Shown: positions 2,583-29,600 of the stretch, piece after piece
Numbering within the stretch: position 1 is the stretch's first letter
Layout: each line of letters starts with the position of its first letter
Virus record (IMG/VR): IMGVR_UViG_3300042560_000186
Coordinates: 1-30,803 of that record
DNA: 30,803 nucleotides
DNA from: a virus
Reading direction: 5' to 3' (one strand)
Position numbers and translations under genes: made by a program
The notes under the pieces: model-generated
What the model was told of the DNA's origin: nothing
What the model saw: only the letters and a program-made list of their open reading frames with translations
Databases searched by the model: none

Positions 2583-2998
2583 TGCCCGCTGGACGCCCGT
2601 CCATCTATTCGCAAGAGCTGGCCGACAAGATCCTGTCGGAGTACAGCCTTGGCCGCAGCATCCGCGACATCTGCTCCGAGGAAGGGATGCCAGACCGGGT
2701 GACCTTGTGGCGCTGGAGGAATGAGAATAAAGATTTTGCATCCGCTCTCGCGTACGCGCGCGAGGCAAACGCCGAGACGATTGAGGACGAGATCCACGAC
2801 ATCGAGCGCAAGGTGCTGACCGAGCAGGTCAATCCGCAGGCTGCGAACGTGGTGCTATCGTCTATGCGCTGGCGCGCCCGAGTGCTGCATCCAAGGCGAT
2901 ACGGCGACAAGGCCGAGGTCGAGCACTCGGGCAATGTCGGCCTGACGGTCAACGTGGTACGGCTAACCGATGCCGACAATCAATCTGCCAGCGAATAA
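2582..2998 (+). CDS. terS: Terminase small subunit
   Basis: This encodes 138 residues. The N-terminal part, from GRPSIYSQELADKI through RSIRDICSEEGMP to VTLWRWRNENKDF (about residues 4-51), is a helix-turn-helix of the kind found in Sf6-type small terminases. An acidic helical segment follows (EANAETIEDEIHDIE), which in this family helps form the ring oligomer. The small subunit recognises viral DNA and hands it to the large subunit for cutting and packaging. The last 29 bases overlap the large-subunit gene, which strongly supports the assignment. The C-terminal tail is polar and probably flexible. Confidence 0.88.
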   Translation: MPAGRPSIYSQELADKILSEYSLGRSIRDICSEEGMPDRVTLWRWRNENKDFASALAYAREANAETIEDEIHDIERKVLTEQVNPQAANVVLSSMRWRARVLHPRRYGDKAEVEHSGNVGLTVNVVRLTDADNQSASE

Positions 2999-4343
2999 CT
3001 GGCGACCGCGGCATTACCAAGTGGCCGCATGGGCCGCGCTAGAAGGTGGCTGCAAGCGGTTGGCTATTGCATGGCCGCGGCGTCACGGCAAGGATGAGGT
3101 TGCTCTGCACTGGGCTGCGGTATCGATGATGACCCGCCCCGGCAGCTACTGGCACATGCTCCCGCAGGCTGCTCAGTCTCGCAAGGCAATCTGGGATGCA
3201 ATCGACGGCCATACAGGCCGCAGGCGTATCGACAATGCATTCCCATTGGAGCTGCGCGAAACGACGCGCGAGCAAGACATGTTCATCCGGTTCAAGAACG
3301 GATCGACATGGCAGGTCGTAGGCTCGGACAACTACAACAGCCTCGTCGGTTCGCCTCCGGTCGGTGTCGTGTTCTCCGAGTACGCGATGGCAGACCCGAA
3401 TGCATGGGCATTCCTACGCCCGATCCTTGCCGAGAACAACGGCTGGGCGATCTTCATCTCGACGCCGAGAGGCCGAAACCATTTTGCTCGCCTCGTCGAA
3501 TACGCACGCCAAGACCCGCAATGGTTCGGGCAAGTGCTGACGGTCGAGGACACGAAGGCGATCCCGATGGACACGATCGCTCGGGAGCGCAAAGAGCTGA
3601 AGATGGAGCGCGGCGACAAGGAAGCCGAGGCCATCATTCGGCAAGAGTATTACTGCGACTTCGATGCAGACATACCGGGCGCGTACTACGGCGAGCTCAT
3701 GCGATCGGCGGAGCTGCAGGGCCGCGTTGCATCCTTCCCGCATGTGATCGGCCAGCCGGTCGGCACCGCATGGGATATTGGCGTCGGCGATTCGACGGTG
3801 ATCTGGTTCTACCAGTTCGTCGGTCACAAGATCCGCATCATCAACGTACTTGAAGGCTCGGGCGTCGGGCTCGACTGGTACGCCAAGAAGCTCCTGAGCA
3901 TGGATTACGTCTACGGCGACACGATCTGGCCGCATGACGGGGCTGTGCGTGAGTGGGGCTCTGGCGTTACTCGAGTCGAGACTGCCGCGGGGTACGGGCT
4001 CAAGCCGCGCATCCTTGAAGCCGATTCGGTCGATGACGGCATCCAAGCTGTGCGTCAGATGCTGCCGGTGTGCGAGTTCAACGCCACGCCTGATCCGTTC
4101 CCAGGTGAGACGCCGGACGATGCCAAGGCGCGCATGACGCGAGCGATCGACGCGCTGCGCCAATACCGCAGGGAGTATGACGAGAAGGGGCAGAGATTCC
4201 GCGACAGGCCGCTGCATGATTGGACGTCGCACTTTGCAGACGCGATGCGCTATCTCGCCAAAGGTCGCCGGCCATTCAGAGGTACAGAGCGCAGAGGTCG
4301 ACAGCCGGGTGCCGCTATAGCAGACTACGCTGTGTTGGGCTAG
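2970..4343 (+). CDS. terL: Terminase large subunit (packaging ATPase and nuclease)
   Basis: This 457-residue protein has the two-domain terminase layout. The ATPase part shows a Walker A of the terminase type (PRRHGKDE, residues 36-43), a Walker B ending in the catalytic acid (VVFSE, 133-137) and the coupling motif FISTPRG (162-168). The nuclease part has an RNase-H-like acidic triad: D269 in AWDIGVGDS, D323 in PHDG, and D424 in HFADAMRY. The enzyme pumps DNA into the prohead through the portal and cuts the concatemer. The opening (NNWRPRHYQ) is typical for this family, which supports the start at 2970 despite a weak ribosome-binding site and a 29-base overlap with the small subunit. No motif is missing. 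Confidence 0.95.
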   Translation: MPTINLPANNWRPRHYQVAAWAALEGGCKRLAIAWPRRHGKDEVALHWAAVSMMTRPGSYWHMLPQAAQSRKAIWDAIDGHTGRRRIDNAFPLELRETTREQDMFIRFKNGSTWQVVGSDNYNSLVGSPPVGVVFSEYAMADPNAWAFLRPILAENNGWAIFISTPRGRNHFARLVEYARQDPQWFGQVLTVEDTKAIPMDTIARERKELKMERGDKEAEAIIRQEYYCDFDADIPGAYYGELMRSAELQGRVASFPHVIGQPVGTAWDIGVGDSTVIWFYQFVGHKIRIINVLEGSGVGLDWYAKKLLSMDYVYGDTIWPHDGAVREWGSGVTRVETAAGYGLKPRILEADSVDDGIQAVRQMLPVCEFNATPDPFPGETPDDAKARMTRAIDALRQYRREYDEKGQRFRDRPLHDWTSHFADAMRYLAKGRRPFRGTERRGRQPGAAIADYAVLG

Positions 4344-4368: not shown

Positions 4369-4569
4369 ATGTCTGGACTGTTCAAACCCAAGATGCCGAA
4401 GATCGAGCCGCCGCCGCCACCTCCCGAAACGGATGTCGCAAAGCAGCGCGAAATCGAATCCACCCGACTGCGCCGGCGTCGAGGCCGTGCCAGCACCATG
4501 ATGTCGACCTCTGAATCCCGCCAGCAGGGCGGCGTGGCGACGACTAGACTCCTCGGAGGTGGCATGTAA
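4369..4569 (+). CDS. Proline-rich small phage protein
   Basis: This encodes 66 residues from the ATG at 4369, with GTGAGG upstream; a GTG at 4363 would add two residues. The layout is a short start (MSGLFKPKMPKIE), a run of prolines, an acidic/basic linker, then RRRRGRASTMMST and a glycine-rich end. From memory, small proteins with this proline-run then RRGR architecture are widespread in podoviruses and usually lie near the portal gene. Here the portal is 5 kb away, separated by the adhesin module. The function is unknown; a structural or assembly role is inferred from position. Confidence 0.7.
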   Translation: MSGLFKPKMPKIEPPPPPPETDVAKQREIESTRLRRRRGRASTMMSTSESRQQGGVATTRLLGGGM

Positions 4570-5297
4570 TGGCTACCAAAAAGATCACTCAGCTCACCTC
4601 GCTCGCTCAGGTCGACGTTGCCAACGGCAGCGACGTTCTTGCGATCGTCGACCTCGGTGCGTCAGAGACGAAGAAGGTCACCCCGCAGGCGCTCGTCGGT
4701 TCAGCCGCGAGCGACATGGTGGCGACATGGAATAGCGTCCTGACCGCCTTCAACGGCGTCAAGCTCAACGTCACGGACACGGCGTCGGATGCTACCTCGC
4801 GGTTATTGAGCTTGCAGGTCGGTGGCGTCGACAAAGCATTCATCACCAAGGCCGGCACGATGAACATCGCCGGCGCGCTGATCGTCTCCAGCGTCTCGAC
4901 GCTTACGGGCGCGGTCACCGCGGTCAGCTCGGTCAAGTCGACGTCAGCCACGGCGGGCGTTGGCTATGGCACGGGCGCAGGCGGCGCGGTTACTCAGGCT
5001 ACCAGCAAATCAACCGGCGTCACGCTCGATAACGTTTGCGGCACGATCACGATGAACAACGCCCAGCTCGACCGCGAGACTGCGGTGAGCTTCACGTTGA
5101 CCAACAGCGCGATCGCGGCGACCGATGTGGTGGTCGTGAACATCAAGTCGGCAGCAACAGCGAATGCCTACAACGTCGCTGTGACGGCTGTGGCCGCTGG
5201 GTCATGCCGGATTCAAGTTCACAACCTTCTCGGCGGCTCCGATCTTTCGGAAGCTCTCGTACTTTCCTTTGCGGTCATCAAGGCCGTCGCGGCTTAA
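4569..5297 (+). CDS. Fibre-like structural protein
   Basis: This encodes 242 residues and starts in a TAATG overlap. The N-terminus (KKITQLTSLAQVDVANGSD followed by DVLAIVDL and KKVTPQAL) resembles an N-terminal module that I recall from phage fibre and spike-like virion proteins. The middle is Ser/Thr/Val/Gly-rich beta-repeat-like sequence. The end has GTGAGGAVTQATSKSTGVTLD, then CGTITM, and finishes ALVLSFAVIKAVAA, typical of trimeric beta-structured fibre tips. The most likely role is a capsid or tail fibre that contacts the host or decorates the particle. Attachment to head or tail cannot be told from sequence. Confidence 0.65.
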   Translation: MATKKITQLTSLAQVDVANGSDVLAIVDLGASETKKVTPQALVGSAASDMVATWNSVLTAFNGVKLNVTDTASDATSRLLSLQVGGVDKAFITKAGTMNIAGALIVSSVSTLTGAVTAVSSVKSTSATAGVGYGTGAGGAVTQATSKSTGVTLDNVCGTITMNNAQLDRETAVSFTLTNSAIAATDVVVVNIKSAATANAYNVAVTAVAAGSCRIQVHNLLGGSDLSEALVLSFAVIKAVAA

Positions 5298-5309: not shown

Positions 5310-5594
5310 ATGGCAACAGGCATTGTTTTGGCATCGAACGCCAGCGCGACGGGTAGCTGGTTTTTCTGGCCGGGCGGTCGCGGTGAGTTCCGCGTCGAAG
5401 GCACGTTCCCCGGCACGGTCAAGCTCGAATGCAAAGGGCCGAACGGCACCGCACAGGATGTCGGCACCAACACAACGTTGACCGGAGCTGGCGGCGGCAT
5501 CTTCGAGCTCGGCGCTGGCGAGATCCGCTGCAACATTGCCACGGCGACCGCGGTCTACGCGATGGCATTGCGTATCCCTGACGGCGGCTTCTAA
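5310..5594 (+). CDS. Small structural-type protein, 94 aa
   Basis: This encodes 94 residues with a start near CGGAGT. The sequence is rich in Gly, Thr, Ala and aromatic residues (SWFFWPGGRGEFRVEG, then TLTGAGGGIFELGAGEIR) and looks all-beta, like small decoration or fibre-associated proteins. It has no signal peptide or membrane helix. It lies between the fibre-like gene and the glycine-rich adhesin, so it may belong to the same host-contact assembly. No family name can be given. Confidence 0.6.
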   Translation: MATGIVLASNASATGSWFFWPGGRGEFRVEGTFPGTVKLECKGPNGTAQDVGTNTTLTGAGGGIFELGAGEIRCNIATATAVYAMALRIPDGGF

Positions 5595-5602
5595 GCCAAG
5601 CC

Positions 5603-8008
5603 ATGCGAACAGAAAGCCGGACGGCGGTACGCACGTTCATTCGCACGGCGCTGCGCACGCTCGGCGGGGGCGGTGGCGGCGGAGCATTCACCGAATACAA
5701 AATCTTCACCGCATCCGGTAACTGGACTGCGCCCACGGGCGTGACGCAGGTGGAATACCTTGTCGTTGCGGGTGGTGGTGGCGGCGGTGGCGCAGGGGCA
5801 ACTTCGCCGCAGCGTTCCGGTGCTGGTGGTGGTGGCGCTGGCGGATTCCGTACAGGTACAGGCTTCAGCGTTACGGCAGGCACTAACTACACGATTACCG
5901 TTGGCGCAGGTGGCGCAGCAAGGTCGGTTAGTTCTACCGCGAACGGCGGCAATGGGTCCGATTCCGTATTTAGCACCATAACGTCCACAGGCGGTGGCGG
6001 TGGTGGGCAGGGCAACCCTAATGGAAGCGCCGGGGCTAACGGCGGCTCTGGTGGCGGCGGCGGTGCGGGTGGTGGTTTCGTTTCGGGAGGTACTGGCAAC
6101 ACTCCTTCAGTAAACCCGTCACAAGGTTCAAATGGCGGGGATTCTCCGGCTAATGGCGGTGGAGGTGGTGGCGGCGCTTCCGCGACTGGAGCGCAACCCA
6201 CGCCCGGATTAGCCGGCAATGGCGGAGATGGCACGGCCTCGTCAATCTCTGGCGCGTCTGCGACGTATGCAGGCGGCGGCGGTGGCTCTGATTATTTTGG
6301 CGGCGCAAACACAGGCGGCTCTGGCGGCTCTGGCGGTGGCGGCTCTGGCGGCGGTTTCGGCCCGAGTAACTTGTCTGCGGTTTCTGGCACGGCTAACACC
6401 GGAGGCGGTGGCGGCGGCGTAAAAGCGGCGAGTGGCGAAAACTCTGGCTCCGGCGGCTCCGGCATCGTCATCCTCAAGTACACCGTACCCGTACAGTCTG
6501 TCGTAGCCACGTTCACCTCTACCGGCACATGGACTGCCCCGAGCGGCGTCAGCGAGGTTGAGTACCTTGTCGTCGCGGGTGGTGCAGGTGGTGGTTCTGG
6601 CGTTCCCGGCGTTAGTTCTGGTGGCGGCGGTGGAGCGGGTGGATTCCGTACTGGCACAGGTTTATCTGTAACAGCCGGAACTGACTACACGATTACGGTT
6701 GGAGGCGGCGGCGCTTCTAGCACAAGCGGATCTAATAGCGTTTTCTCAACTATTACCTCAACCGGAGGCGGGCGAGGGGCTGGTGGCGCACCAAATGCCG
6801 CTGCAACGGGTGGCTCTGGCGGTGGTGGCAATGATGCTGCGGGTGGCGGGACTGGGGCTGCTGGAAATACTCCAAGCACAGCGCCGTCGCAAGGAAATGC
6901 CGGTGGAAATGTCGGCGTGTTGGGATGTGGAGGCGGCGGCGGGGCTGGCGCAACCGGATCAAACGGATCTGTAAATGTCGGCGGTGGCGGTGGAAACGGA
7001 ACCGCGTCATCCATTTCGGGCGGCTCGGTTACCTACGCGGGTGGTGGTGGCGGTGGCGGTGCATCTGCCCCTGTTGCGCCGGGAGGCTCTGGCGGCGGCG
7101 GCACCGGCGGTCAAGGGCCAAATAATGCAACTGCTGGCGCAGCCAACACAGGCGGCGGCGGCGGTGGCGCTATTGGTGGCGCGGCTCCCGCTGACGTAGG
7201 CGGCGCTGGCGGCTCCGGCATCGTCATCATCAAATACAACATCGGCTCTGCCTCAATCTTCACCTTCAAGTCATCGCAGAAGTGGACTGCACCTGCGGGT
7301 GCGGTGAGCGTTGACTACCTCGTTGTAGCGGGTGGTGGTGGAGGTGGGGTTGGCGGATTAAATTTATATAACGGCGGCGCAGGAGGGGCTGGCGGCTTCC
7401 GTACCGGCACGGCGTTGACTATTACTGCTGGTAGCGAGTACACGATTACCGTTGGCGGTGGCGGGGCATCTAGCACTAATGGTTCCGATAGTATTTTCTC
7501 TACCATAACCTCCACGGGCGGTGGTAAAGGCGGCACGGGTAGTCAAGGCGCAACCGGATCAAGTGGTGGTTCTGGCGGTGGTGGCGCATCACATGGATCG
7601 GCAAATGGAGGCGCTGGCAACACACCGTCAGTCAATCCTAGTCAAGGCAACAATGGCGGTGCCGGTAGCAACGATGCGCCGAACTATGGTTCTGGCGGCG
7701 GCGGCGGTGCTTCTGCTGTAGGTTCTGCGGGGACATCAACTGCTGGCGGTAACGGTGGCGCAGGCACCGCTTCAAGCATTTCCGGCGGCTCTGTTACTTA
7801 TGCAGGCGGCGGTGGCGGCGCTGCATCAGCAGGAACAGCGGGAACCGGCGGCTCTGGTGGTGGCGGTAATGGTGGCGTTGCCGCAGCAGGCTCTGCTGCT
7901 ACAGTCAACACAGGCGGCGGTGGCGGCGGAGGATCGGGACTCGGCGCGGCTTACGCAGGCGGCGCAGGCGGCTCCGGTATCGTAATTCTCAAGGTCAACT
8001 TCACATGA
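5603..8008 (+). CDS. Giant glycine-rich adhesin with three tandem domains
   Basis: This 801-residue protein has a short basic N-terminus (residues 1-25), then three copies of one domain. Each copy begins with a Phe-x-x-x-x-x-W-T-A-P segment (Trp at 41, 310 and 561), continues with a YLVVAGG strand, then some 200 residues of poly-Gly/Ser/Asn with GGFRTGT, YTITVG, VFSTIT and YAGGGGG landmarks, and ends GGSGIVILK or GIVIIK. This is the phage glycine-rich domain. In the Salmonella phage S16 adhesin, runs of this type fold as packed polyglycine-II helices that carry receptor-binding loops. A host-binding tip or decoration role is likely. Starts 9 bases after the previous stop. Codon choice in the glycine runs is mixed GGC, GGT and GGA. 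Confidence 0.75.
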   Translation: MRTESRTAVRTFIRTALRTLGGGGGGGAFTEYKIFTASGNWTAPTGVTQVEYLVVAGGGGGGGAGATSPQRSGAGGGGAGGFRTGTGFSVTAGTNYTITVGAGGAARSVSSTANGGNGSDSVFSTITSTGGGGGGQGNPNGSAGANGGSGGGGGAGGGFVSGGTGNTPSVNPSQGSNGGDSPANGGGGGGGASATGAQPTPGLAGNGGDGTASSISGASATYAGGGGGSDYFGGANTGGSGGSGGGGSGGGFGPSNLSAVSGTANTGGGGGGVKAASGENSGSGGSGIVILKYTVPVQSVVATFTSTGTWTAPSGVSEVEYLVVAGGAGGGSGVPGVSSGGGGGAGGFRTGTGLSVTAGTDYTITVGGGGASSTSGSNSVFSTITSTGGGRGAGGAPNAAATGGSGGGGNDAAGGGTGAAGNTPSTAPSQGNAGGNVGVLGCGGGGGAGATGSNGSVNVGGGGGNGTASSISGGSVTYAGGGGGGGASAPVAPGGSGGGGTGGQGPNNATAGAANTGGGGGGAIGGAAPADVGGAGGSGIVIIKYNIGSASIFTFKSSQKWTAPAGAVSVDYLVVAGGGGGGVGGLNLYNGGAGGAGGFRTGTALTITAGSEYTITVGGGGASSTNGSDSIFSTITSTGGGKGGTGSQGATGSSGGSGGGGASHGSANGGAGNTPSVNPSQGNNGGAGSNDAPNYGSGGGGGASAVGSAGTSTAGGNGGAGTASSISGGSVTYAGGGGGAASAGTAGTGGSGGGGNGGVAAAGSAATVNTGGGGGGGSGLGAAYAGGAGGSGIVILKVNFT
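5689..6498 (+). repeat. Glycine-rich domain repeat, copy 1
   Basis: First of three protein-level repeats in the 801-residue adhesin, about residues 30-298. Landmarks are NWTAPTGV, YLVVAGGGG, GGFRTGTGF and GGSGIVILKY. It is the longest copy. Confidence 0.75.
6502..7251 (+). repeat. Glycine-rich domain repeat, copy 2
   Basis: Second copy, about residues 301-549. Landmarks are TWTAPSGV, YLVVAGGAGG, GGFRTGTGL and GSGIVIIKY. The boundary strands are well conserved with copy 1, whereas the poly-glycine core differs in length and in its interspersed residues. Confidence 0.75.
7252..8005 (+). repeat. Glycine-rich domain repeat, copy 3
   Basis: Third copy, about residues 550-801. Landmarks are KWTAPAGA, YLVVAGGGGG, GGFRTGTAL and GGSGIVILK at the very C-terminus. 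It forms the end of the protein, so it is the likely distal tip. Confidence 0.75.
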
Positions 8009-8253
8009 AAACATATCAACTGATGGGCATTGATACCGCGATGCACTTGCTGCGTCCCGGTGCAAAGTGGGAAATCAGCAACCGCGAAATCACCCGCTGG
8101 GAAGATCCGCGACCGAAACCGTCGTGGGACGAGATCATGTTCACGATTGAAAAGATCAAGGAACTTGAGGACGCGGTGCCGACGATCCTGCTGCCCGAGC
8201 AGCAGAAGGCGTTTGAGGACTATGTTGAGCAGATTGAAAAGGCGGTCGCGTGA
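8005..8253 (+). CDS. Small acidic protein, possibly XkdW-like fibre partner
   Basis: This encodes 82 residues, starting in an ATGA overlap with the adhesin gene. The sequence has an ITRWEDPRPKPSWDEI segment followed by an acidic helix (KIKELEDAVPTILLPEQQKAFEDYVEQIEKA). A tryptophan/proline turn before such a helix is seen in small phage proteins of the XkdW type that sit directly after fibre genes, often as assembly partners. That match is tentative. The tight coupling to the adhesin suggests a partner or chaperone of it. The stop overlaps the oxygenase GTG start. Confidence 0.6.
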   Translation: MKTYQLMGIDTAMHLLRPGAKWEISNREITRWEDPRPKPSWDEIMFTIEKIKELEDAVPTILLPEQQKAFEDYVEQIEKAVA

Positions 8254-8864
8254 ATCTGTATTCCATATTCCCGACGGCGGTTGCCAAGTTTGAACTCGGG
8301 CGCGACTTCAGCCCCGAGGAAACTGCCTTTGTGGACTCGCAAGAGACGCACAAGAACCAAGGCAACACCACAAGCAACGACCGCTATGTGCTGCGCCACG
8401 ACACGATGGCAAACCTCAAGGCGTTCGTAGAGGCAAGCGTGGCCGAGTATCTACAAAGTATCTACGCGCCGAAAAACGAGGTGGGCTTACGCATCACTCA
8501 GTCGTGGCTCAACTACTGCCAGCCCGGTCAATGGCACCACAAGCACGCGCATCCCAACAGTTTCATCAGCGGCGTTCTTTACATGAAGGCTGCTCGAGAG
8601 CGCGACAAGATCTATTTCTACCGCGACGGCTACCAGCAGATCAAAGTCCAGACGGACAACTGGAACCTCTACAACAGCGAGAGCTGGTGGTTTGAGGTCG
8701 GTGCCGGCGACTTGATGCTGTTCCCGTCCAGCCTCACGCACATGGTGGAAGCCGTGCAGCAGGAGCGGGTATCGCTATCGTTCAACACTTTCCCGGTCGG
8801 TTATGTCGGGGAAGAAGAATCGCTCACGGCGTTGCATCTTGAGAATCCTCAAGGCGCAGCGTAA
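8250..8864 (+). CDS. 2-oxoglutarate/Fe(II)-dependent oxygenase
   Basis: This encodes 204 residues from a GTG at 8250 (GTGA overlap); the opening NLYSIFPTAVAKFEL is typical of the phage-borne 2OG-FeII_Oxy_5 group. The double-stranded beta-helix motifs are present: an HAH pair (H99, H101) just before PNSFISGVLYM, a distal histidine in SSLTH (H164), and an arginine in ERVSLSF (R173) where 2-oxoglutarate binds. These enzymes hydroxylate or demethylate a protein, nucleic acid or small molecule using O2 and 2-oxoglutarate. The substrate cannot be read from the sequence. The position right after the adhesin genes makes a virion protein a possible target (inference). Confidence 0.85.
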   Translation: MNLYSIFPTAVAKFELGRDFSPEETAFVDSQETHKNQGNTTSNDRYVLRHDTMANLKAFVEASVAEYLQSIYAPKNEVGLRITQSWLNYCQPGQWHHKHAHPNSFISGVLYMKAARERDKIYFYRDGYQQIKVQTDNWNLYNSESWWFEVGAGDLMLFPSSLTHMVEAVQQERVSLSFNTFPVGYVGEEESLTALHLENPQGAA

Positions 8865-9216
8865 TGACTTTCCAGAGTTTTACGCGGAGTACAGTATTGA
8901 TGATCTAGGGATATTCATGGACAAACTGCCGGTCGCCTTTTTGCCAATCATCAAGGCCGACATTGAGCAGCGAGGCATGGTTTACCCGATCATCATTTTC
9001 AGTCCTTACGAGCAGTACCAGGCCGACCCGAATCCGGTGCTGCCCGCAAAGACGAGTTGGAGGCGAGAGATACTGCGGGTGTACATGGGACACAAAAGGG
9101 TGTGGGTAGCAAGGGAGTTAGGTTACTCGCACATTTCTGCGTACCATGTACGGACCGACAAGCAGGCCCGAGCGTTATGCGGGCATACGACGATTAGAGA
9201 GTTTTGCCCAAATTGA
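8803..9216 (+). CDS. ParB-like (sulfiredoxin-fold) domain protein
   Basis: The frame gives up to 137 residues. The core has GMVYPIIIF and, later, VYMGHKRVWVARELGYSHI (about residues 93-111). This matches the ParB N-terminal/sulfiredoxin-like fold, whose GHxR box binds nucleotide; ParB-like domains can act as CTP-binding clamps or as nucleases. A 20-residue loop separates the two halves. The start is uncertain: ATG 8803 overlaps the oxygenase by 62 bases, TTG 8839 lies within a perfect inverted repeat, and ATG 8917 would remove part of the conserved part. Residues NDFPEFYAEYSIDDLG look genuine. No DNA-binding ParB C-terminal domain is present. Confidence 0.6.
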   Translation: MSGKKNRSRRCILRILKAQRNDFPEFYAEYSIDDLGIFMDKLPVAFLPIIKADIEQRGMVYPIIIFSPYEQYQADPNPVLPAKTSWRREILRVYMGHKRVWVARELGYSHISAYHVRTDKQARALCGHTTIREFCPN

Positions 9217-9228
9217 GGAGTAACTGAA

Positions 9229-9591
9229 GTGGCCCACTACGCAGAGTTAGATGAGAACAACGTCGTTAAGCGCGTCATCGTCGTCGCCAACAAGGATACG
9301 GCGGATGCCAACGGCAACGAAGTCGAAAGCATCGGTGTGGCATTCTGCCAGAAGCTGCTCGGCGGCAACTGGAAGCAGACGAGCTACAACGGCAGCATCC
9401 GCAAGCACTACGCCGGGATCGGCTACAAGTACGATGCCGCGCTGGATGCGTTCATCCCGCCGCAGCCGTATCCGTCATGGACGCTGGACGCCGACTGCAA
9501 CTGGCAGGCTCCGGTGCCGATGCCGTCTGATGGAGAGATGTATACTTGGGACGAAGCTGCCCAAGCATGGGTTTCGGCTCCGCAGGAGTAA
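9229..9591 (+). CDS. Conserved small phage protein, 120 aa
   Basis: This encodes 120 residues from a GTG with a GAGGAG site at 9214-9219. It contains HYAELDENNVVKRVIVV, a GNWKQTSYNGSIRKHYAGIGYKYD core and a PYPSWTLD...W-aromatic tail. From memory, closely similar sequences are common in marine and freshwater podoviruses and myoviruses, near fibre genes or structural genes, with no known function. It is probably a small virion or assembly protein. It ends four bases before the portal start. Confidence 0.7.
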   Translation: MAHYAELDENNVVKRVIVVANKDTADANGNEVESIGVAFCQKLLGGNWKQTSYNGSIRKHYAGIGYKYDAALDAFIPPQPYPSWTLDADCNWQAPVPMPSDGEMYTWDEAAQAWVSAPQE

Positions 9592-9594
9592 GCG

Positions 9595-11262
9595 ATGGCA
9601 GAGTCACGCGCAGCAGAAGTCCTTGAGGGCTATGACCGGCTGAAGGGTGCGCGTGGCACTTGGGAGCAGCATTGGCAAGAAGTCGCCGAGCGCGTCTGGC
9701 CGACGATGGCCGAGATGACAGGCTGGCGCACGCCGGGCGAGAAACGATCAGAGAAGATCTTCGACTCGACCGCCCAGCGCGCCTTGCCGCGATTTTCTGC
9801 TGCAATGGATTCGATGCTGACGCCGGCCACCCAGATGTGGCACGGACTGCGTACCGGCATCCCAGAGCTCGATGACAACGTGGCTGTGCAGCGTTGGTGT
9901 GATTCCATACGCGACATCTTGTTCCGCCAGCGATATGCGCCGACTGCGAACTTTGCGAGTCAGGCATTCGAGTGCTACATGAGCCTAGGTGCATTCGGCA
10001 CCTCTGCGCTTTTCATCGACGAGATTCCCGGCGTGACGCTGCGATACCGCGCGATCGCGCTCTCTGAGTTAGTCATCGATCTTGACCATACTGGCCGCGT
10101 CGACACCGTGTATCGCTGCTTCCAGCTCACGGCGCGACAGGCGATGCAGATCCCCGGCTGGGCTGACAAGCTGCCGCGTGGCATCAAGTCCTCGGCTGAG
10201 GCGCGTGCGAACGATATGTTTGAGTTCGTGCATTGCGTGAAGCCGAACGGCGACTATGTGGCCGGTCGAGCTGGCCCGCAGGGCATGCGCTATCAATCGC
10301 GCTACGTCTCCCGTGAGGGGCAAGTGTTGCTCGATGACAGCGGCTATCGATCAATGCCGTATGCGGTCGGGCGCTACGTCACCGGGCCGCGTGAAATTTA
10401 TGGGCGGTCGCCCGCGATGGAGGCTCTGGCCGACATCAAGTCTCTGCAAGAGATGGAAAAGACCATGCTTCGGATGGCGCACCGCATGGTCGACCCGCCG
10501 CTCATTCTCGCCGAGGAGGGCGCCCTTAATGCGTTCTCGGTGCGCCCTAATGCATTGAATTACGGCTACCTCCGCGAGGACGGCACGCCGCTGGTTCAAC
10601 CGCTGCAGACGGGAGGCAATCTGCCGATCGGCATTGAGATGTCGGATCAGAAGCGCAAGGCGGTGAACGATTCCTTCCTTGTGACGCTGTTCCAGATCCT
10701 TGTCGAGAGTCCTCGCGTGATGACCGCGACCGAGGTGCTGCAGCGTGCGCAGGAAAAAGGCGCGCTGCTTGGCCCGACGATGGGCCGTCAGCAGTCAGAG
10801 TTCCTTGGCCCGATCATCGACCGCGAGCTCGACCTTCTTTCGGCTGGTGGCGATCTGCCGGTGCCGCCTCCGCAGCTCATGGATTACATCATGGGCGGTG
10901 GCGAGATCCTGCCGAAGTACACCGGCCCGCTCGCCCGGCTGATGAAAGCCGAGGAGGCCGCTGGCATTCTGCGCACGATCGAGGCGATCCTGCCGGTCGC
11001 GCAGGCGTCTGGCGACATGACGGTGCTGCGCCGCATCAATGCGGATCAGGCGGTCAAGGTCATTGCCGAGGCCAACAATGTGCCGGCAAAGGCGCTGCGT
11101 ACCGACGAAGAGCTCGAAGCGATGGACGCCGCGCAGCAAGAGGCCGCGCAGATGCAGCAGCTTTTGGCCGCGGCTCCGGTCGCAGGGCAGGCCGCTGAGA
11201 GGTTTGCAAGGGCGGAGCAGATCGCTGCGTCTGCTCCAAGACGAGCTGTGCCGGGAATCTAA
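9595..11262 (+). CDS. Portal protein (head-tail connector, T7 gp8 type)
   Basis: This 555-residue protein belongs to the podovirus connector family (head-tail_con; T7 gp8 is 536 residues). The opening is typical: a RLKGARGTWEQHWQEVAERVWPT helix, then EKIFDSTAQRALPRFSAAMDSMLTP. The centre holds GRSPAMEALADIKSLQEMEK and MTATEVLQRAQEKGALLGP, which are strongly conserved in these portals. The protein forms the twelve-subunit ring at one capsid vertex through which DNA is packed and ejected. The C-terminus is rich in Ala, Gln and Met, as in the family's barrel and crown. Codon use and length are normal. Confidence 0.92.
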   Translation: MAESRAAEVLEGYDRLKGARGTWEQHWQEVAERVWPTMAEMTGWRTPGEKRSEKIFDSTAQRALPRFSAAMDSMLTPATQMWHGLRTGIPELDDNVAVQRWCDSIRDILFRQRYAPTANFASQAFECYMSLGAFGTSALFIDEIPGVTLRYRAIALSELVIDLDHTGRVDTVYRCFQLTARQAMQIPGWADKLPRGIKSSAEARANDMFEFVHCVKPNGDYVAGRAGPQGMRYQSRYVSREGQVLLDDSGYRSMPYAVGRYVTGPREIYGRSPAMEALADIKSLQEMEKTMLRMAHRMVDPPLILAEEGALNAFSVRPNALNYGYLREDGTPLVQPLQTGGNLPIGIEMSDQKRKAVNDSFLVTLFQILVESPRVMTATEVLQRAQEKGALLGPTMGRQQSEFLGPIIDRELDLLSAGGDLPVPPPQLMDYIMGGGEILPKYTGPLARLMKAEEAAGILRTIEAILPVAQASGDMTVLRRINADQAVKVIAEANNVPAKALRTDEELEAMDAAQQEAAQMQQLLAAAPVAGQAAERFARAEQIAASAPRRAVPGI

Positions 11263-12695: not shown

Positions 12696-13694
12696 ATGCC
12701 CAAGGCAGCTTGTTCGGATGACGAATTCATATCCATTTGGAATCGGCTGGGAAGCCCGATAAAGGTTGCGAAGTTCCTCGGCGTCAGCGATCGAGCTGCG
12801 CAAGAAAGGCGTCGCAGGATAGAGCTGCGCTGCGGCGTGCATCTCGTAACCAAAGAGCGCAACCGTCCGGTATCTCAAGATGAGATGAAGGGCGCAAGGC
12901 TCGACGCGGTTGCTGCCGAGCGTGCGCGCAAGTACGAAAAAGACATGACGATGGATCTTGAGGACGGGGTCGTACTGGTGGCCTCTGACTGCCACTATTG
13001 GCCGCAGGTGGTAACGACAGCGCATGAGGCGTTCTGCAGACTGGCAAAGGCGCTGAAACCGAAACTCGTAGTGCTGAACGGCGACATCCTTGACGGCGCT
13101 CGCATCTCCCGTCACGCGCGCATCATGTGGGAGAAACAGCCGGAGCTGAAAGATGAGATCTATGCGGTGCAGGATCGGTGCGCTGAGATTGAGCGCGCTG
13201 CGGGTAACGCTGCTTTCGTGCGCACGATCGGCAACCACGATGCGCGATTCGAGAACTACCTATCCAGCCGGGTGAGCGAGTTCGAGGAGATGACCGGCAT
13301 GACGCTGCTCGATTACCTGCCTCGCTGGCGGGCGGGTTGGGCGCTGCACCTCAACCACGGCACGAAAGGTTGGACTGCAATCCGGCACAGGCCGGTCGCT
13401 GGCGGCATTCATTCTGCCTACAACTCGACGCTCAAGGCTGGCGTGAACTACGTTCACGGGCATCTGCACAAGCTGCAGGTGACGCCGTGGGCTGACTACC
13501 GAGGACGTAGATACGGCGTAGATACGGGAACGATGGCCGAGCCGTATGGGCCGCAGTTCAACTACACCGAGTCCGGCCCGGTGAACTGGGCGTCTGGGTT
13601 TGCGGTGCTGACCTTCCACAATGGCGTGATGCTTGAGCCGGAACTTTGCGTAGTGCAGCACGGCGCGGCATGGTTCAGAGGTGCGCAGGTATGA
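12696..13694 (+). CDS. Metallophosphoesterase with N-terminal HTH
   Basis: This encodes 332 residues. The N-terminal part (about 10-50) looks like a helix-turn-helix (VAKFLGVSDRAAQERRRRIE). The rest is a calcineurin-like metallophosphoesterase with the full metal set: D98 and H100 in SDCH, D130 and D133 in GDILDG, GNHD (179-182), an H in LNHGT (221) and GHLH (255-258). Such enzymes hydrolyse phosphomonoesters or phosphodiesters, including nucleic acids and nucleotides. From memory, phage copies with an N-terminal HTH are common. Its substrate is unknown. It lies in the late region between lysozyme and scaffold. The end overlaps the next gene in an ATGA junction. Confidence 0.85.
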   Translation: MPKAACSDDEFISIWNRLGSPIKVAKFLGVSDRAAQERRRRIELRCGVHLVTKERNRPVSQDEMKGARLDAVAAERARKYEKDMTMDLEDGVVLVASDCHYWPQVVTTAHEAFCRLAKALKPKLVVLNGDILDGARISRHARIMWEKQPELKDEIYAVQDRCAEIERAAGNAAFVRTIGNHDARFENYLSSRVSEFEEMTGMTLLDYLPRWRAGWALHLNHGTKGWTAIRHRPVAGGIHSAYNSTLKAGVNYVHGHLHKLQVTPWADYRGRRYGVDTGTMAEPYGPQFNYTESGPVNWASGFAVLTFHNGVMLEPELCVVQHGAAWFRGAQV

Positions 13695-15521: not shown

Positions 15522-16409
15522 ATGGCCGATAATATTGCAAGCGTTTATGCCGTCCAATACGGCACGAACATCTCGCTGCTTCTGCAGCAGAAGGGCTCCA
15601 AGCTGCGCTCTGCGGTGCAGACTGGTTCTTACAAGGGCAAGCAGTCGGAAGTCGTCACGCAGTACGGTGCCACCTCGGCCCGTGCGGTTTCGACCCGCTA
15701 CCAGCCGATCGTCCCGGTCAACACCCCGAACAATCGTCGGTGGGTGTTCCCCGAGGATTACGACTGGGCCGACCTGATCGACAACTTCGACAAGCTCCGT
15801 CTCCTCGCTGACCCGCAGTCTGCCTATTCGCAGAACGGGCTCTATGCGATGGGCCGCGCGATCGATGACGTCATCATCTCGGGCATCTTCGGTGCGAACA
15901 AGACGGGCGAGGCTGGCGGCACGACCACCAACTTTGCCACTTCGACTCAGCAGGTTGCTGTGAACTACGCTGCCTCGGGCAACGTGGGCCTCACGGTTGA
16001 CAAGCTGCGCGAAGCGCGTCGCATCCTGATGGAGAACGAAGTCGACCTCGACGCCGAGCCGGTGTATTGCGCCATCTCTGCCGAGCAGCACGATGACCTT
16101 CTCGGTCAGATCCAAGTGACCTCGGCTGACTTCAGCTCCGGCATGCCGGTGCTTGAGGATGGCAAGGTGACCCGTTTCCTCGGGATCAACTTCATCCACA
16201 CCGAGCGTCTCCCGACGAGTTCGAGCCACCGCCGTTGCCCCGTGTGGGTGCCGTCGGGCGTTCATCTCGGCATGTGGAATGACATCATGTCGAACATCAC
16301 GCAGCGTCGTGACCTCTCTTCGCATCCTTATCAGATCTATCTGATGGGAACCTTCGGTGCCACGCGCACGGAAGAGAAGAAGGTTGTCGACATCCTCTGC
16401 GCGGAATAA
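15522..16409 (+). CDS. Major capsid protein
   Basis: This encodes 295 residues from the ATG at 15522, with a strong TTGGAGGG site. It follows the scaffold gene and precedes a cement-like gene, as in BPP-1-like phages. The sequence fits the Phage_capsid_2 family of HK97-fold coat proteins: QYGTNISLLLQQKGSKLR at the N-terminus, then RYQPIVPVNTP and RRWVFPEDYDWADLIDNFD, the ADPQSAYSQNGLYAMGRAID spine-helix region, and LGINFIHTERLP. It forms the icosahedral shell. Codon use is strongly biased to C/G third positions, as expected of a highly expressed gene. Nothing is truncated. Confidence 0.9.
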   Translation: MADNIASVYAVQYGTNISLLLQQKGSKLRSAVQTGSYKGKQSEVVTQYGATSARAVSTRYQPIVPVNTPNNRRWVFPEDYDWADLIDNFDKLRLLADPQSAYSQNGLYAMGRAIDDVIISGIFGANKTGEAGGTTTNFATSTQQVAVNYAASGNVGLTVDKLREARRILMENEVDLDAEPVYCAISAEQHDDLLGQIQVTSADFSSGMPVLEDGKVTRFLGINFIHTERLPTSSSHRRCPVWVPSGVHLGMWNDIMSNITQRRDLSSHPYQIYLMGTFGATRTEEKKVVDILCAE

Positions 16410-23697: not shown

Positions 23698-26600
23698 ATG
23701 AGCTTTGACGGACTGCTGTCGATCCGCCGGCCCTACGAGCGCCAAGTTGAAGTGCGCGAGCCAACGCTGGGCGAGGAGCTCATCGAGGTTGGTCGCGAGG
23801 CATTTGAGTTCAGCCCGACGCAATCCATAGTTCGCGGGCTGGAGCTTGATGAGGCCCGTCGCAGCAAAAACATCCTGTCGGCAGAAAGCGCGCGTGCTCA
23901 GCTCGGCAACGCCGGGCTGCGCGACCAGCTCACCGTGCCGGATCAAGGTATCAGCCAAGAGGCGCTCGACATCCTTATTCGCCGCAAGCAGATCGAGAAT
24001 CGTCGCGCTGATCTCTACTCCAGAAGTCCCGGCGGCTTTAGTCGCGGCGCAGCCAAAGTCGCAGCCAGTCTCGGATACTCGCTCTTTGACCCGCTAAACA
24101 TTGCCACGGCATTCGTGCCGGTGGTAAGTCAGGCGCGGTATGCGGCCATGCTCAGAGCGCAGACTGGCTTACTTGGCCGCACCGGAGTGCGTGCCGGCGT
24201 CGGCTTCGTCGAGGGCGCTGCCGGTGCCGCACTTGTCGAGCCGCTTATTCTCGGCGTAGCTCAGGCAGAGCAGGCCGACTATGACGGCGCTGACTCCCTT
24301 CTCAATATCGCATTTGGAGGCATTCTGGGCGGTGGCCTTCATGCCGTGGGCGGCGCTGGGTACGAGGCCGTGCGTCGCCTCAGAGGGCTTGAGGCGCTGC
24401 CTCCGCGCACCGATGTCGAGGCTGCCGTGCAGCAGGCTCTCGCTGAGTCTCGCACCGAGCTGCCGAGCGCGCCGAGCGTGCCGCCGCCGGTCAAGGTGGA
24501 GACGTCCAAGCGGTTCGAGCCGTCTACTGTGCAGCCTGTCGACGCCTACACCGAGTCTGCGCAACGGATTCTGAAAGAGCTCAACAGCATCCTTGACCTC
24601 GACCCGAACAACACCAAGCAAGTGTCTCTGGCTACGGGCGAAAAAGCGGTATCGATTACTGAGTTCGTGCGCCGAGCCGGTGGAATTGTCGATCAAGGCG
24701 GCGAGCTCTCGGCTAGAGACGTCACCAACAAGACTGCGCCCGGCTTGGTTCGCAAGGACACGCCAGAGAATCGGCAAATCGCCGGCATGGACTCCGTGCG
24801 CGAGCGGCTTTTCGATGCGGGATATTTCCTAGAAAAGACGGACTACAACCAGATTAGCGATTCCGAGATATTCGATGCGCTCGCCGAGGACATTGCCGGC
24901 AATCGAGTGTGGCAAGGCACGGTGCGCGACAAGCTCTCCAAGTTCATTGGAGGCCGCGACTACATCACGCTCATGGAGGCCGAAGGCTTCAGCCGGAGCA
25001 TGTCTGTGGCGCAGATCGCCGATCGGCTGCGAGCGATGGACGATGAGGCCCGCGCCGAGTTCGATGTTGCCCGCGAGATCGACCCTGAGACGCTGCGCGA
25101 GTACGAAGCCTTTGCAGAGCGCCTCAATGCGCAAAATGCCGCGGTCAATATCGTCGACTCTCTGAACCCAGAAACCCGCCGCGCTGCGCTGCAGACTGGT
25201 GTGGCTCAAGCGATGGATGCCCGAGATATTAGCGTCGAGGCCATCGTCGGCCTTGACCCGTCAATCGCCCGCGGCGGCGAGGACTTCCCGCTGCAGTCTG
25301 CCCGCAACGCGGCCATCGAGAACTCGCGCCCAGATCAGGCCGCGCTGGTGGACTTTGAGGCTGCCGCAGAGACGCCAGATCCGCGCCGGGTGCCGATGCT
25401 AGATGCCGCCGATGCCGCACTTGCCGATGCCCGCGCTGCCGCCGATGAGGCCGCCAATGCGGTGAATGCCGAAGGCGAGTTCCGTCGCAGCCTGATGGTG
25501 CAGGAAGAGCCGCAGCAGTTTGGCGATGTGCCGGTAACGGTCGACAATATCGCCAACGTCGAAGCAGCCTTTGAGCGTGCCCGCGGCAAGACGTTCCCGA
25601 ATAACCGAACATTCAAGAAGGAAATCCAAGACGCGGTTAATGCCGCGGCTACGGACGCCGCGGTCGATCTCACGGAGATGACGCCTGCCGTTGAGCGATA
25701 CCTAATCCGTATGGCTGTGCGCGAGGCTCGGGTCGCCCTGCGCGATAACGCCAATGCGGTCGGCTGGTACAACGAGAAGGTCACCAAGGCGCTGCGCATC
25801 ATCTCGCTGATTCACCCCGAGATTATGAAGAGCCGAGAGGATCGGTTCGCATTCACTTGGGCGCTTGCCGTTACATCGAACGGGCTGAAGGTCGACAAGA
25901 ACTTCGATCTTGCGATGAGGGCATACGAGGCTTGGAAAAAGACCGGCCGCATGCCAAACGACATTGGCATTGGCACGGCCTCTAGCGCCATCAATAACTC
26001 GCTAGAGCTCTACAACGTGATGCTCAAGCAGCACGGATTCGATGCGCTTGAGAATTTCATGCGATCGAAGGACACGGTCAAGAAAATCGAGGCGTTCTCG
26101 GGCCTTGAGGTTGGCGGAGAGAACCTTTCGACGCAGGTCTACGGCTCGGCCATTCTCGGCCCGAAGATCGGCAACGGATTTTTCTCAAACTTGTACGGCA
26201 ACTTCGAGCAGCTCACGATCGACCGCTGGCTCATGCGTACTTGGGGGCGCTGGACTGGGACGCTGATTGAGGAAAACCCGACGCAGGTCGCGGCCAAGAG
26301 AAAGTCACTTGTCTCGCTTATCCGATTGCTAGGTAAAGATGAGCGCAAACAACTTGAAGGCATCATTGGCAGGAAGATCGCTCTGGCTCGGCCGGACGAG
26401 ATTGCGTTCGCCATTGCCAAGGCCAGTACCAAAAAGGCAAACAGAACGGCTGTTAATAAAATTGGGGCAGGGTTTTCTGAAGAAGCATTGAGCTCGATTG
26501 TTGGCTCGTTGAAGAAAAACAAAGTCCGAATCGGCCTAGGTGATGAGATTCGCAAAACTGGCAATGCGCTCGCAAAGTATATTGACGGGCAGAAAGAAGC

Positions 26601-29600
26601 TCCGTCTGGCCCACCTGAGCGCGCCAACCTTCGCAAGGTGTTCGGCGCTGCCCTAGAGCAGCTCCAAAAAGATAACCCAGAGTTAACAATGGCTGACATG
26701 CAAGCCTTGCTCTGGTATCCTGAGAAGAGGTTATACGATGCAGCGGGTGCAGCAGATGAAGCAGTCGAAGCCGGATATGCAGACGATGCAGCCCCAGACT
26801 ATGCCAACGCAGCGGCAAAGCTCGCCGAAGGACGAGGAGTCTCCAGAGACAGGATCGACGGAGTCACTCGAGCAGTTGACGAAGAGCTACAGGCCGAGCA
26901 ACGCGCAGGACGAGCAGGACGAGCTGGTCAGCGAGTTTCTAACTCTGCAGCGTTCACAGTAAATGAACAGCTCCAACTGTATCTCGATTTCGGGCCAGTT
27001 CCGACTCAAAGCGGCCCGCGAGCTGTCGCAGCCCAACGCGCCGCAGTCAAAGCGGTGGATGATCTACGATCCTCCTCCGACTTACTTGCACTCTCCTTGT
27101 CGCGTGATTTCGCTGCAAGACAGAGAGTCTCGCTTGTCGGGCAAAAAGTAAGCTCGACCGAAGACTTTGCCACGCTTGCGCAGGTCTACCGCGATCCGCG
27201 GTTTGAGACGCTGCGCTACGTCTTTACGGATGACGAAGGCAATATCGTCGGTCAGGCTGGCGCGACCTCTCGGCTTCCTGCGTCGGCGGCTGGCTGGATT
27301 GGGCCGGAGGCCACAGACTTCCTTAACGAGCTCATCGATCGCGCATACGGAATCGGCGCGCGCGGCGTTTATCTTTTGCATAATCATCCAAGCGAGGTCG
27401 CCAGACCAAGCTCGGTTGACATCGAGTTCACCACAAGCGTCGCCAAGTTTTTCAAAAGGCGCGGGATGGAATTCCGCGACCATGTAATTATCGATACCAA
27501 TGAGTACTCCGTAATCAAGGCAAACGGAGCGTCCGAAACGATCAAAAAAGATTTTGGTCAGCCGAGTTTGTTGCGCCTTAAGAAAATGGCGGCCATGCCA
27601 ATTCGGAACTCCGAAAACCTTGCCAGCCTTGCGCGAGAGCTAAAGTTCGACAATAAGTCTACGGTGCTGATTGCTACGAATATCCGGTATGTCGTCCAGA
27701 ACATCGTCGAAGTCCCGCAAGACAAAATCATGTCTTACGGCAACACGCGAAAAGAGCGGGCTCGCGCGATGTTTGCTCTGCGAAAACTTGCGCTGTCGAG
27801 CGATTCGTCATTCATCTTTGCCGTGACTCGTGACTATGCGTCGGCGCAGGCGATGCGCAACGTGGCGCTCGATACTATTTTCATCGATGAGAGTGGGCGC
27901 GCAGGCTCCGTCGGCGCCGCGCAAGCGCGCGGTGGCCGCATCATTCCGAAAGATCGCAGGGCCAGAATCTCGCCGGAAACCAGCGAAGCATTCTTGCCCC
28001 TTCGCGATCTTGATGCCGCCGAGGCTATGCGCCAGAAAGCCGTCTTTGAGGAAGGCGCTGTCTACAATGCCGGCGATACCAAGGATCAGATGCGCCCGTT
28101 CGATGAGGCGATCGCCCGCGCAGAGATGTATGCGCAGGCTATCCGCGCTGCTGCCGATCGCGTCGGCAATGACGATGCCGCAAGAAGCGCGATGCAGATG
28201 GCATCGAAGGGCCAGCTCACGGCAATGGAGATCGACACGTTGCTGGCGCGGCTGAAGGATGAGAACACCCGCGTTCGCTCAACGCTCCGAAAAGCGCAGG
28301 AGCAATTCACGGCAGCAGACAAGATTGACTCACTCGAAGGCGACGCTACCCGCGCAGCCAACTCGCTCGCTAACAACATCAAGCTCGATGCCACGATCGC
28401 CGCCCGCAATGCCGCGCTCAGTCTCGCGGCACGCACCAAGGCCGTCGGTCGCATCCTCACCCAATTCGCCGACAACCCGTCAGAGGGGCTGCTGTCCTTG
28501 CTTGGCGGTTCGTCATTCGCCCGGTTCGGCTCCAAAGACTCGGCGTTCCATTGGCAACGAACCTACTTCACCCGCTGGACGAAGGGCATGCTCGCCGAGA
28601 TGGAGAAGGAAGGGCTCGTCGAGGGATTCGCGAGCGATGCCTACTCACGCGATGTTGCCCGCGCCCTGTACCAGATGGGTCGCGATGAGCCTCGCCTTGA
28701 GGGGCTCGACCCGACTGCGATCAAGATTGCCAAGATCGTCTACAAGTACCGCGAGGACTCGCGCAATACGCGCAACAGATTCGGCGCGTGGATTCGCGAC
28801 CTGACGGGATACATCACCCGGCAACAGCATGACTTTATGAAGATCCGCGCGGCAGGCGATAAAGAATGGAAAGACTTTGTACGCCAGCGCATCGACGTCG
28901 AGCGGTCGCTCAAGCCGGGGCAGAACCTCGAAGAGTTCCTCGATTTCGTTTATGCCGATCTTGCCGCTGGGCGTCACTTGTCTGCGGTCGACGATGAAGC
29001 TGCTGCCTACACGGCACCGGGTTCACTTGCCCGCCGAGCCTCCCAGTCTCGCGTCATTTACTTTAAGGATGCAGATGCCGAGTTCGATTACTTGACGGAG
29101 TTCGGCGTCGGCAAGCTCAACGAGGCAATCCTCGGCGACCTTAGTCGCGCAGCACAGCAAGCCGGCTTGATGCGCGTGCTTGGCCCGAACCCCGGCTATA
29201 CGCTCAAGGCGGTGATGGCCGAGGTCGAAGCTGGCCTTGTGCGCACGCCGGAATTGCGTGGCGAGTTTGCCGACACCCGCGACACGGCAGAGGGCTTGCT
29301 CTCGATGCTTGACGGTACGGCCAACGTGCCGGGCAAGGCGATGGCCGCCCGTGTCGGCTCCAATGTGCGCGTGGTTCAAGCGATGGCAAAGCTCGGCGGC
29401 GCGGTCATTTCGGCTGTCACCGACCTGCCCGTATACGCAAGCCAGATCAAGTATCAGGGCCGCGGCGGCCTGTTCTCTGGTATCGCTGAGGGTATCGGCG
29501 GGCTCTTGCAGGGCCGAGCCAAGGGCGAGCGCAAACGCATCCTCGGGATGATCGACACCGTGGCCGACAATCTGGTTGGCAGCGTGGCGACTCGATTCGA

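Follow-up and report, generated by a model that had tools for sequence, protein, structure and literature searches.

A putative tail adhesin array with slot-specific domain ends and interchangeable interiors in an uncultured water phage

The virus record IMGVR_UViG_3300042560_000186 (30,803 bases, referred to as the window in its entirety) belongs to an uncultured water phage and carries on its plus strand an open reading frame (ORF, 5603–8008) for an 801-amino-acid (aa) glycine-rich protein, hereafter the fibre. The fibre consists of three tandem Gly_rich_2 domains whose ends depend on the position, or slot, of the domain in the chain, while the interiors are nearly independent of the slot. 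It probably represents an exchangeable tail adhesin array for host recognition. The ORF is located between the genes for the large terminase (2970–4343) and the portal protein (9595–11262), and the capsid gene of the same phage lies at 15522–16409. A Pfam search with hmmscan revealed three PF21722 (Gly_rich_2) stretches (whole-protein E 4e-65), with a score of 220.4 bits compared to a curated cut-off of 24.3; the protein also matched PHROG 2295 (function unknown). The PF21722 profile search of the window's own record yielded 0 matches, which we attribute to the loss of low-complexity sequence. An NCBIfam search gave no match, and in an annotated phage collection one record was matched by the fibre and one by the window DNA.

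Domain 1 (aa 30–297) is encoded at 5690–6493, domain 2 (aa 298–551) at 6494–7255, and domain 3 (aa 552–801) at 7256–8005. The three domains are supported by the hmmscan stretches (E 3e-22 for the match within aa 1–297) and alignment, and domain 3 also by a structure model. In each domain, the first ~22 and the last ~10 residues are slot-specific and enclose an interior of ~220 residues. The slot-specific regions of the window fibre comprise the start of domain 1, KIFTASGNWTAPTGVTQVEYLVV (5699–5767), the joint between domains 1 and 2, GIVILKYTVPVQSVVATFTSTGTWTAPSGVSEVEYLVV (6461–6574), and the joint between domains 2 and 3, GIVIIKYNIGSASIFTFKSSQKWTAPAGAVSVDYLVV (7217–7327). The chain ends with the strand GIVILKVNFT (7976–8005), which is near-invariant at the fibre end.

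The slot effect emerged from a comparison of 49 distinct closed fibres, gathered beside the small downstream gene X after removal of loci L063 and L066. Domains were counted by a YLVV-type pattern. L128, a fragment, and L126, whose second head was missed by the pattern, were left out of the domain set, which thus comprised 139 domains from 47 fibres. In the 27 three-domain fibres, DNA identity at the domain start was 0.880 within the same slot versus 0.584 between different slots, and at the domain end 0.904 versus 0.670. The corresponding values for the three interior segments were 0.691 versus 0.678, 0.581 versus 0.579, and 0.622 versus 0.618. This contrast between ends and interiors holds over 3,159 domain pairs. 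With ends compared, 126 of 139 domains had their nearest neighbour in their own slot class; with interiors compared, the count was 66 of 139, with ~46 expected by chance. At the sequence level, the ends are therefore slot-specific and the interiors near slot-independent.

Individual domains illustrate this relationship. Window domain 3 and domain 1 of the L008 fibre have interiors with 93.4% DNA identity and an exact run of 202 nucleotides (nt) in common, while the starts of the two domains are only 59.1% identical. Further cross-slot near-copies link L009 domain 1 with L032 domain 2, L056 domain 1 with L136 domain 2, and L016 domain 3 with L027 domain 1. The changes between cross-slot copies are scattered over ~220 codons. 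The first-pass annotation had suggested duplication followed by divergence; the near slot-independent interiors point instead to interiors moving among slots and among phages. Concerted evolution inside single genomes was rejected, as domain pairs within a fibre were 0.618 identical compared to 0.616 between fibres, with 0 of 150 at 0.8 or above. This equality would neither demonstrate nor rule out selection for unlike heads.

Heads also differ between closely related phages. The portal protein of L052 is 99.8% identical to that of the window, and the slot starts of the two fibres are 94–98.5% identical. Their interiors, with identities of 0.592, 0.643, and 0.617, lie at the level of the background (mean interior DNA identity 0.616). 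Likewise, 12 of 12 pairs of long carriers with backbones 86–92% identical had interior identities of 0.59–0.67 in all slots; these correspond to about nine independent pairs, because G011 and G012 are the same virus. The 100% identical G011 and G012 were the only long carriers sharing interiors. A second contig with the window's fibre, L002, may derive from the same population. By these comparisons, interiors have been replaced between close phages.

Three domains per fibre were found in 27 of the 49 fibres, two in 12, and four in 7, in addition to one six-domain fibre, one counted as single-domain (L126), and the fragment. In a broader collection of 131 closed ORFs, forms with two domains or one were far more numerous. 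Copy number thus varies between related phages, a comparison that the first-pass annotation had called for. All three-domain fibres (27/27) carry the starts KIF, ATF, and FTF in the same order, and the four-domain fibres keep another fixed slot order (7/7). Seven of the 12 two-domain fibres have ATF and FTF, as though the first slot were absent. The six-domain fibre (L133, 1295–6001) looks as if slots two and three of a three-domain fibre had been appended to a four-domain array. Unequal crossing-over within a head could explain such a fusion, with misassembly possible in this single contig; in a segment test, the E-type start and A-like second half of its fourth domain fit weakly.

Within the window, the three copies measure 268, 254, and 250 residues, in agreement with the 250–270 residues described initially, and there are exactly three occurrences of each of the shared boundary strands WTAP, YLVVAGG, GGFRTGT, and GIVI. 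Pairwise identity of the copies is ~63% at the protein level and ~61% at the DNA level. They use the same codon at only 38–45% of identical residues, and the longest exact DNA run common to two of them is 21 nt. An assembly duplication, which had been expected to leave copies near-identical in DNA, was therefore rejected. The poly-glycine core had been thought to differ between the copies. Its glycine blocks turned out to be mostly conserved, and the variation resides in about eight short segments between them. An alignment of the 139 domains shows conservation of 90% or more at 112 of 259 columns, with the glycine blocks separated by eight hypervariable segments. These segments have a glycine fraction of 0.20 versus 0.47 and contain more charged and aromatic residues. 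Glycine-rich motifs split by hypervariable segments, as in gp38 of the S16 type, are thus present in the Gly_rich_2 domains, and the combination of conserved framework and hypervariable segments agrees with a glycine-rich adhesin-like protein. The great majority of domains are 236–275 residues long.

Glycine-codon repeats had been put forward as a route for domain gain or loss. The part of this idea that concerns recombination stands, with an N-terminal junction that fits a crossover in glycine codons; slippage was not seen. Microsatellite expansion of glycine codons was rejected, since only three small tandem repeats were present, all in copy 1. Adjacent glycine codons were alike in 66 of 151 cases, compared to 57 expected from shuffling (p 0.07, not significant). 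The GC content at third codon positions was 0.52 in the fibre gene versus 0.70–0.78 in the nine other window genes measured. Codon scrambling restricted to glycine was rejected, as other amino acids that were checked had low values too. Third-position GC was low in the fibres of all 22 carriers examined and tracked contig GC, so that it gives no sign of recent import.

A structure model of domain 3 alone indicated a confident fold (predicted local distance difference test, pLDDT, 94.2; predicted template modelling score, pTM, 0.89) and not the disorder that would have spoken against an adhesin. The model shows sheets like those of tumour necrosis factor (TNF) with glycine-rich loops, as in the Pam3 fibre protein gp24, which was also its best structural alignment (VIA Z 17.1, 180 residues, 2.2 Å). 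The Bxb1 tail tip ranked second (Z 15.8), and the glycine-rich domains of ALK/LTK matched more weakly (Z 6.3–8.8). Pam3 gp24 was at the same time the sole sequence match of the fibre in the PDB (E 0.003–0.005). S16 gp38 was not among the listed structural matches, an absence that does not exclude likeness. A library of predicted viral structures gave 248 matches at E 0.001, the first being an 808-residue phage protein. These matches included a glycine-rich protein (E 1e-14) of the halovirus HF2, which we take to be one of the hafunaviruses. The model of the whole fibre reached a pLDDT of 79.5 but a pTM of 0.46, and does not fix the packing of the heads.

The fibre starts with a tag, MRTESRTAVRTFIRTALRTL plus seven glycines (5603–5683), that contains an RTxx repeat and a helix at residues 4–20 predicted with low confidence (pLDDT ~45). 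Among 48 distinct fibre starts, 44 were MSGI, one MTGI, and two of the RYKGG type; the RTxx repeat occurred in the window only. Directly upstream of the fibre lies a small gene (5310–5594, plus strand) that is outside the mobile cassette, adjoins the insertion place in phages of the same lineage, and was found at 4 of 78 loci detected by the fibre. In the window lineage, the gene following this small gene has an RTxx start in 13 of 16 regions examined; the start is degenerate in L220 and L251 and was not found in L200. The bodies behind these lineage tags comprise ~50 residues, a 420–433-residue protein, a LamG protein with three stretches, or one, two, or three Gly heads. The window and L008 differ in DNA up to the glycine codons that directly precede AFTEYK, and within these codons the two sequences become identical. 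The lineage tags and this switch suggest that in the window the adhesin body became linked to the lineage's own RTxx tag. We propose that the N-terminal tags may serve as virion-attachment peptides.

Other proteins bear related tags. An RTxx-type tag starts a ~680-residue protein at L240 (5331–7367) and L228 (2754–4802). With its three stretches of LamG (PF13385), the L240 protein is a further adhesin-like body in three parts that occupies the same position. In many phages of the window lineage, as at L196 (6476), L202 (7849), L215 (5267), and similar loci, only an RTxx-tagged protein of ~50 residues that ends in repeated LLE-type motifs is encoded.

Downstream, the fibre gene is followed on the same strand by a conserved set of genes. 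Gene X (8005–8253, 82 aa; phrog_21526, function unknown) overlaps the fibre stop codon with its start (ATGA). Next are a 2-oxoglutarate (2OG)-Fe(II) oxygenase gene (8250–8864; phrog_81; PF13759, E 7e-19, 68.5 bits compared to a cut-off of 27), an optional gene of unknown function (8803–9216; 16 of the 78 loci), and a phrog_7759 gene, also of unknown function (9229–9591), with homologues in P-RSM4 and S-CAM8. Gene X was 89–100% identical in the 80 loci kept from 569 related stretches; loci from different searches overlap on the same contigs, and the mean identity of X includes such duplicates. The window X protein had no Pfam match and no useful match in the PDB, where it hit a designed repeat protein along with further chains that look like chance matches. 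A scan of a genome collection for X returned two metagenome-bin contigs, neither of which pointed to a host.

At 55 of the 78 loci, all of which were detected through the fibre alone, the sequence continues for 3 kb or more downstream. X was present in 48 of these 55, the oxygenase in 51, the 9229-type gene in 53, and a window-type portal in 6. The order X, oxygenase, (optional gene), 9229-type gene was maintained in all 48 loci with X. The portal family of the window was found in 2 of 25 carrier records. Among 23 carriers, the window has 11 ORFs in common with G010 and 0–2 with each of the other 21; the number of carrier groups rises from 5 to 8 to 10 as the required number of shared ORFs is raised from 8 to 10 to 12. 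These counts are lowered because eight contigs were compared only in part. One region of the marine cyanophage P-RSM4 encodes a single-domain Gly_rich_2 protein, homologues of X and of the 9229-type gene, and a protein 27% identical to the oxygenase. S-CAM8 has a single-domain Gly_rich_2 protein, the same two homologues, and an annotated oxygenase without a match to that of the window. Both genomes (L148 for P-RSM4, L150 for S-CAM8) are T4-like and have, downstream of the Gly_rich_2 protein, several oxygenase-like genes with the X homologue in their midst.

Outside the cassette, a fibre-like gene of the phage lineage (phrog_18251; 4569–5297, plus strand) has homologues in same-lineage phages. 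A metallophosphoesterase-like gene (phrog_221; 12696–13694) directly follows the endolysin gene among structural genes. The gene at 23698–30696 encodes a virion protein of 2,332 residues, of which aa 1220–1277 match the DNA-repair family phrog_10276. Its middle contains an HNHPS motif, which we take to be typical of JAMM/RadC domains.

Several published systems resemble parts of this arrangement, as described in the accessible text of the respective articles. Pam3 gp24 (PDB 7yfw, 7ypx) likewise passes from TNF-like sheets into a glycine-rich, loop-tipped domain, and its gene is followed by a partner gene, the chaperone gp25, with which the gp24 trimer is assembled (PMC9608196). It differs in having one head per chain and trimerising via an N-terminal helical bundle (PMC9608196), whereas a chain of the window fibre comprises three domains and a 20-residue tag; X would be only a putative counterpart of gp25. 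The Bxb1 tail tip (PDB 9d93) and the polyglycine-rich "brush" domains of phages contain the same kind of glycine-rich head, and LSH1 is reported with three small C-terminal brush domains (PMC13243795). However, these reside on tail hub or tip proteins, and shuffling between slots is not described in the accessible text (PMC13243795). The gp38 adhesins of the S16/T2 type, including PP01 gp38, alternate glycine-rich motifs with hypervariable loops that set receptor specificity, but have a beta-helix base and one glycine sandwich (PMC6851490, PMC12892980). In haloarchaeal hafunaviruses, a variable glycine-rich adhesin followed by a small gene is linked to host range, with a single adhesin per gene in the accessible text (PMC8651126). 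Exchange as such also has precedents. The unrelated Alteromonas phages A5 and V22 share a tail fibre/chaperone module, which has another fibre fold and no tandem interchangeable heads (PMC10579305). The tail-associated tandem BACON domains of gut phages have, in two lineages, spread mostly through horizontal transfer of individual domains; they are a different domain, and the accessible text does not mention slot-specific ends with slot-independent interiors (PMC6949934). Exchanged tailocin fibres occur in Pectobacterium (PMC13195805). In the literature searched, which covered few subscription papers, slot-specific ends combined with interchangeable interiors are not described for Gly_rich_2 arrays.

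The fold, the variability, and these precedents suggest a receptor-binding role. According to the model that we favour, the short tag would attach the tail-associated adhesin to the virion, and hypervariable loops on three TNF-like, glycine-rich heads would contact the host surface. The slot-specific frame may join neighbouring heads and leave the interiors interchangeable. Specificity could then change when interiors are exchanged by homologous recombination, from slot to slot or from one co-infecting phage to another, or when whole slots are gained or lost, and the complete cassette of fibre, X, oxygenase, and phrog_7759 gene would move between otherwise unrelated phages. X is the candidate fibre-assembly partner and probably aids folding of the fibre, which the oxygenase may modify.

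Some observations weigh against this model. A small slot signal remains in the interiors (0.0127 and 0.0042, beyond 12 permutations, in two of three segments), their same-slot nearest neighbours exceed chance, and clear cross-slot near-copies amount to a handful. Foldseek TM-scores to Pam3 are modest (0.46–0.50; E 5e-5 at a TM-score of 0.47). All carriers are metagenome contigs, so that some joins may be chimeric. Among 22 loci of the window lineage (portal at least 87% identical), 15 lack a cassette in the stretch from the small gene to the portal, 2 have a single Gly domain without X, and 5, including the window's twin contig, have X and a two- or three-domain fibre. Thus, the cassette is not essential.

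The three heads of one chain might pack with each other like the three chains of Pam3 gp24, forming a single-chain heterotrimer, an arrangement that we regard as unlikely though not far-fetched. The slot-specific end strands would form three different interfaces, the three exchangeable tips would face the host, and each slot could be refilled from a shared pool. Near-matches between interiors occurred in 20 of 9,441 between-fibre pairs, suggesting a pool of very roughly several hundred interior types and thus very many combinations in three slots. A strict trimer is hard to reconcile with the two- and four-domain arrays, which would need pairing between chains or a different stack.

There is a rather small chance that the array arose by triplication in place long ago, followed by divergence towards multivalent binding with little recombination. 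The equal divergence of the window copies at the protein level, the prevalence of three-domain fibres, and the slot-specific ends, which imply old slots, are in line with this origin. It predicts, however, that interiors follow the slot as the ends do, which they hardly do; moreover, near-identical interiors occupy different slots, and close phages differ in all interiors. It is improbable as well that much of the apparent shuffling stems from metagenome misassembly joining fibre genes at conserved glycine-rich stretches. Conserved blocks repeat within and between fibres, exact runs of 60–80 nt are common to many domain pairs, and the six-domain fibre is a single contig. Yet a join would not create the scattered changes seen in cross-slot copies, the slot contrast extends over thousands of domain pairs, the window copies share no exact run beyond 21 nt, and L002 contains the same fibre as the window, albeit possibly from the same population.

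We see equally slim prospects for a protein that is structural or a general binder of debris, glycans, or particles rather than of a specific receptor. Gly_rich_2-like proteins also occur in algal viruses, and the searches made returned no tested function for the family. Hypervariable segments and head replacement between close phages nevertheless fit selection on host range, the Pam3 domain has been assigned to host recognition in the accessible text (PMC9608196), and a glycine-rich adhesin tracks host range in haloarchaeal viruses (PMC8651126). Loop diversity written by a diversity-generating retroelement is very unlikely: short hypervariable segments do sit in a fixed frame, but the reverse transcriptase PF00078 was found in 0 of 23 carrier records, some of them possibly fragments, and differences as well as sharing extend beyond the loops to whole interiors.

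Host range in phages is usually attributed to swaps of whole fibres or to mutation of loops. The adhesin array would appear to add a middle level of host-range change, at which the frame is fixed and heads can pass from one slot to another and from one phage to an unrelated one. It would also tie a 2OG-Fe(II) oxygenase, a type of gene often filed as metabolic, to an adhesin cassette. If this is right, the host range of each phage could be described by its set of heads, and heads and slots could be tested singly as purified proteins.

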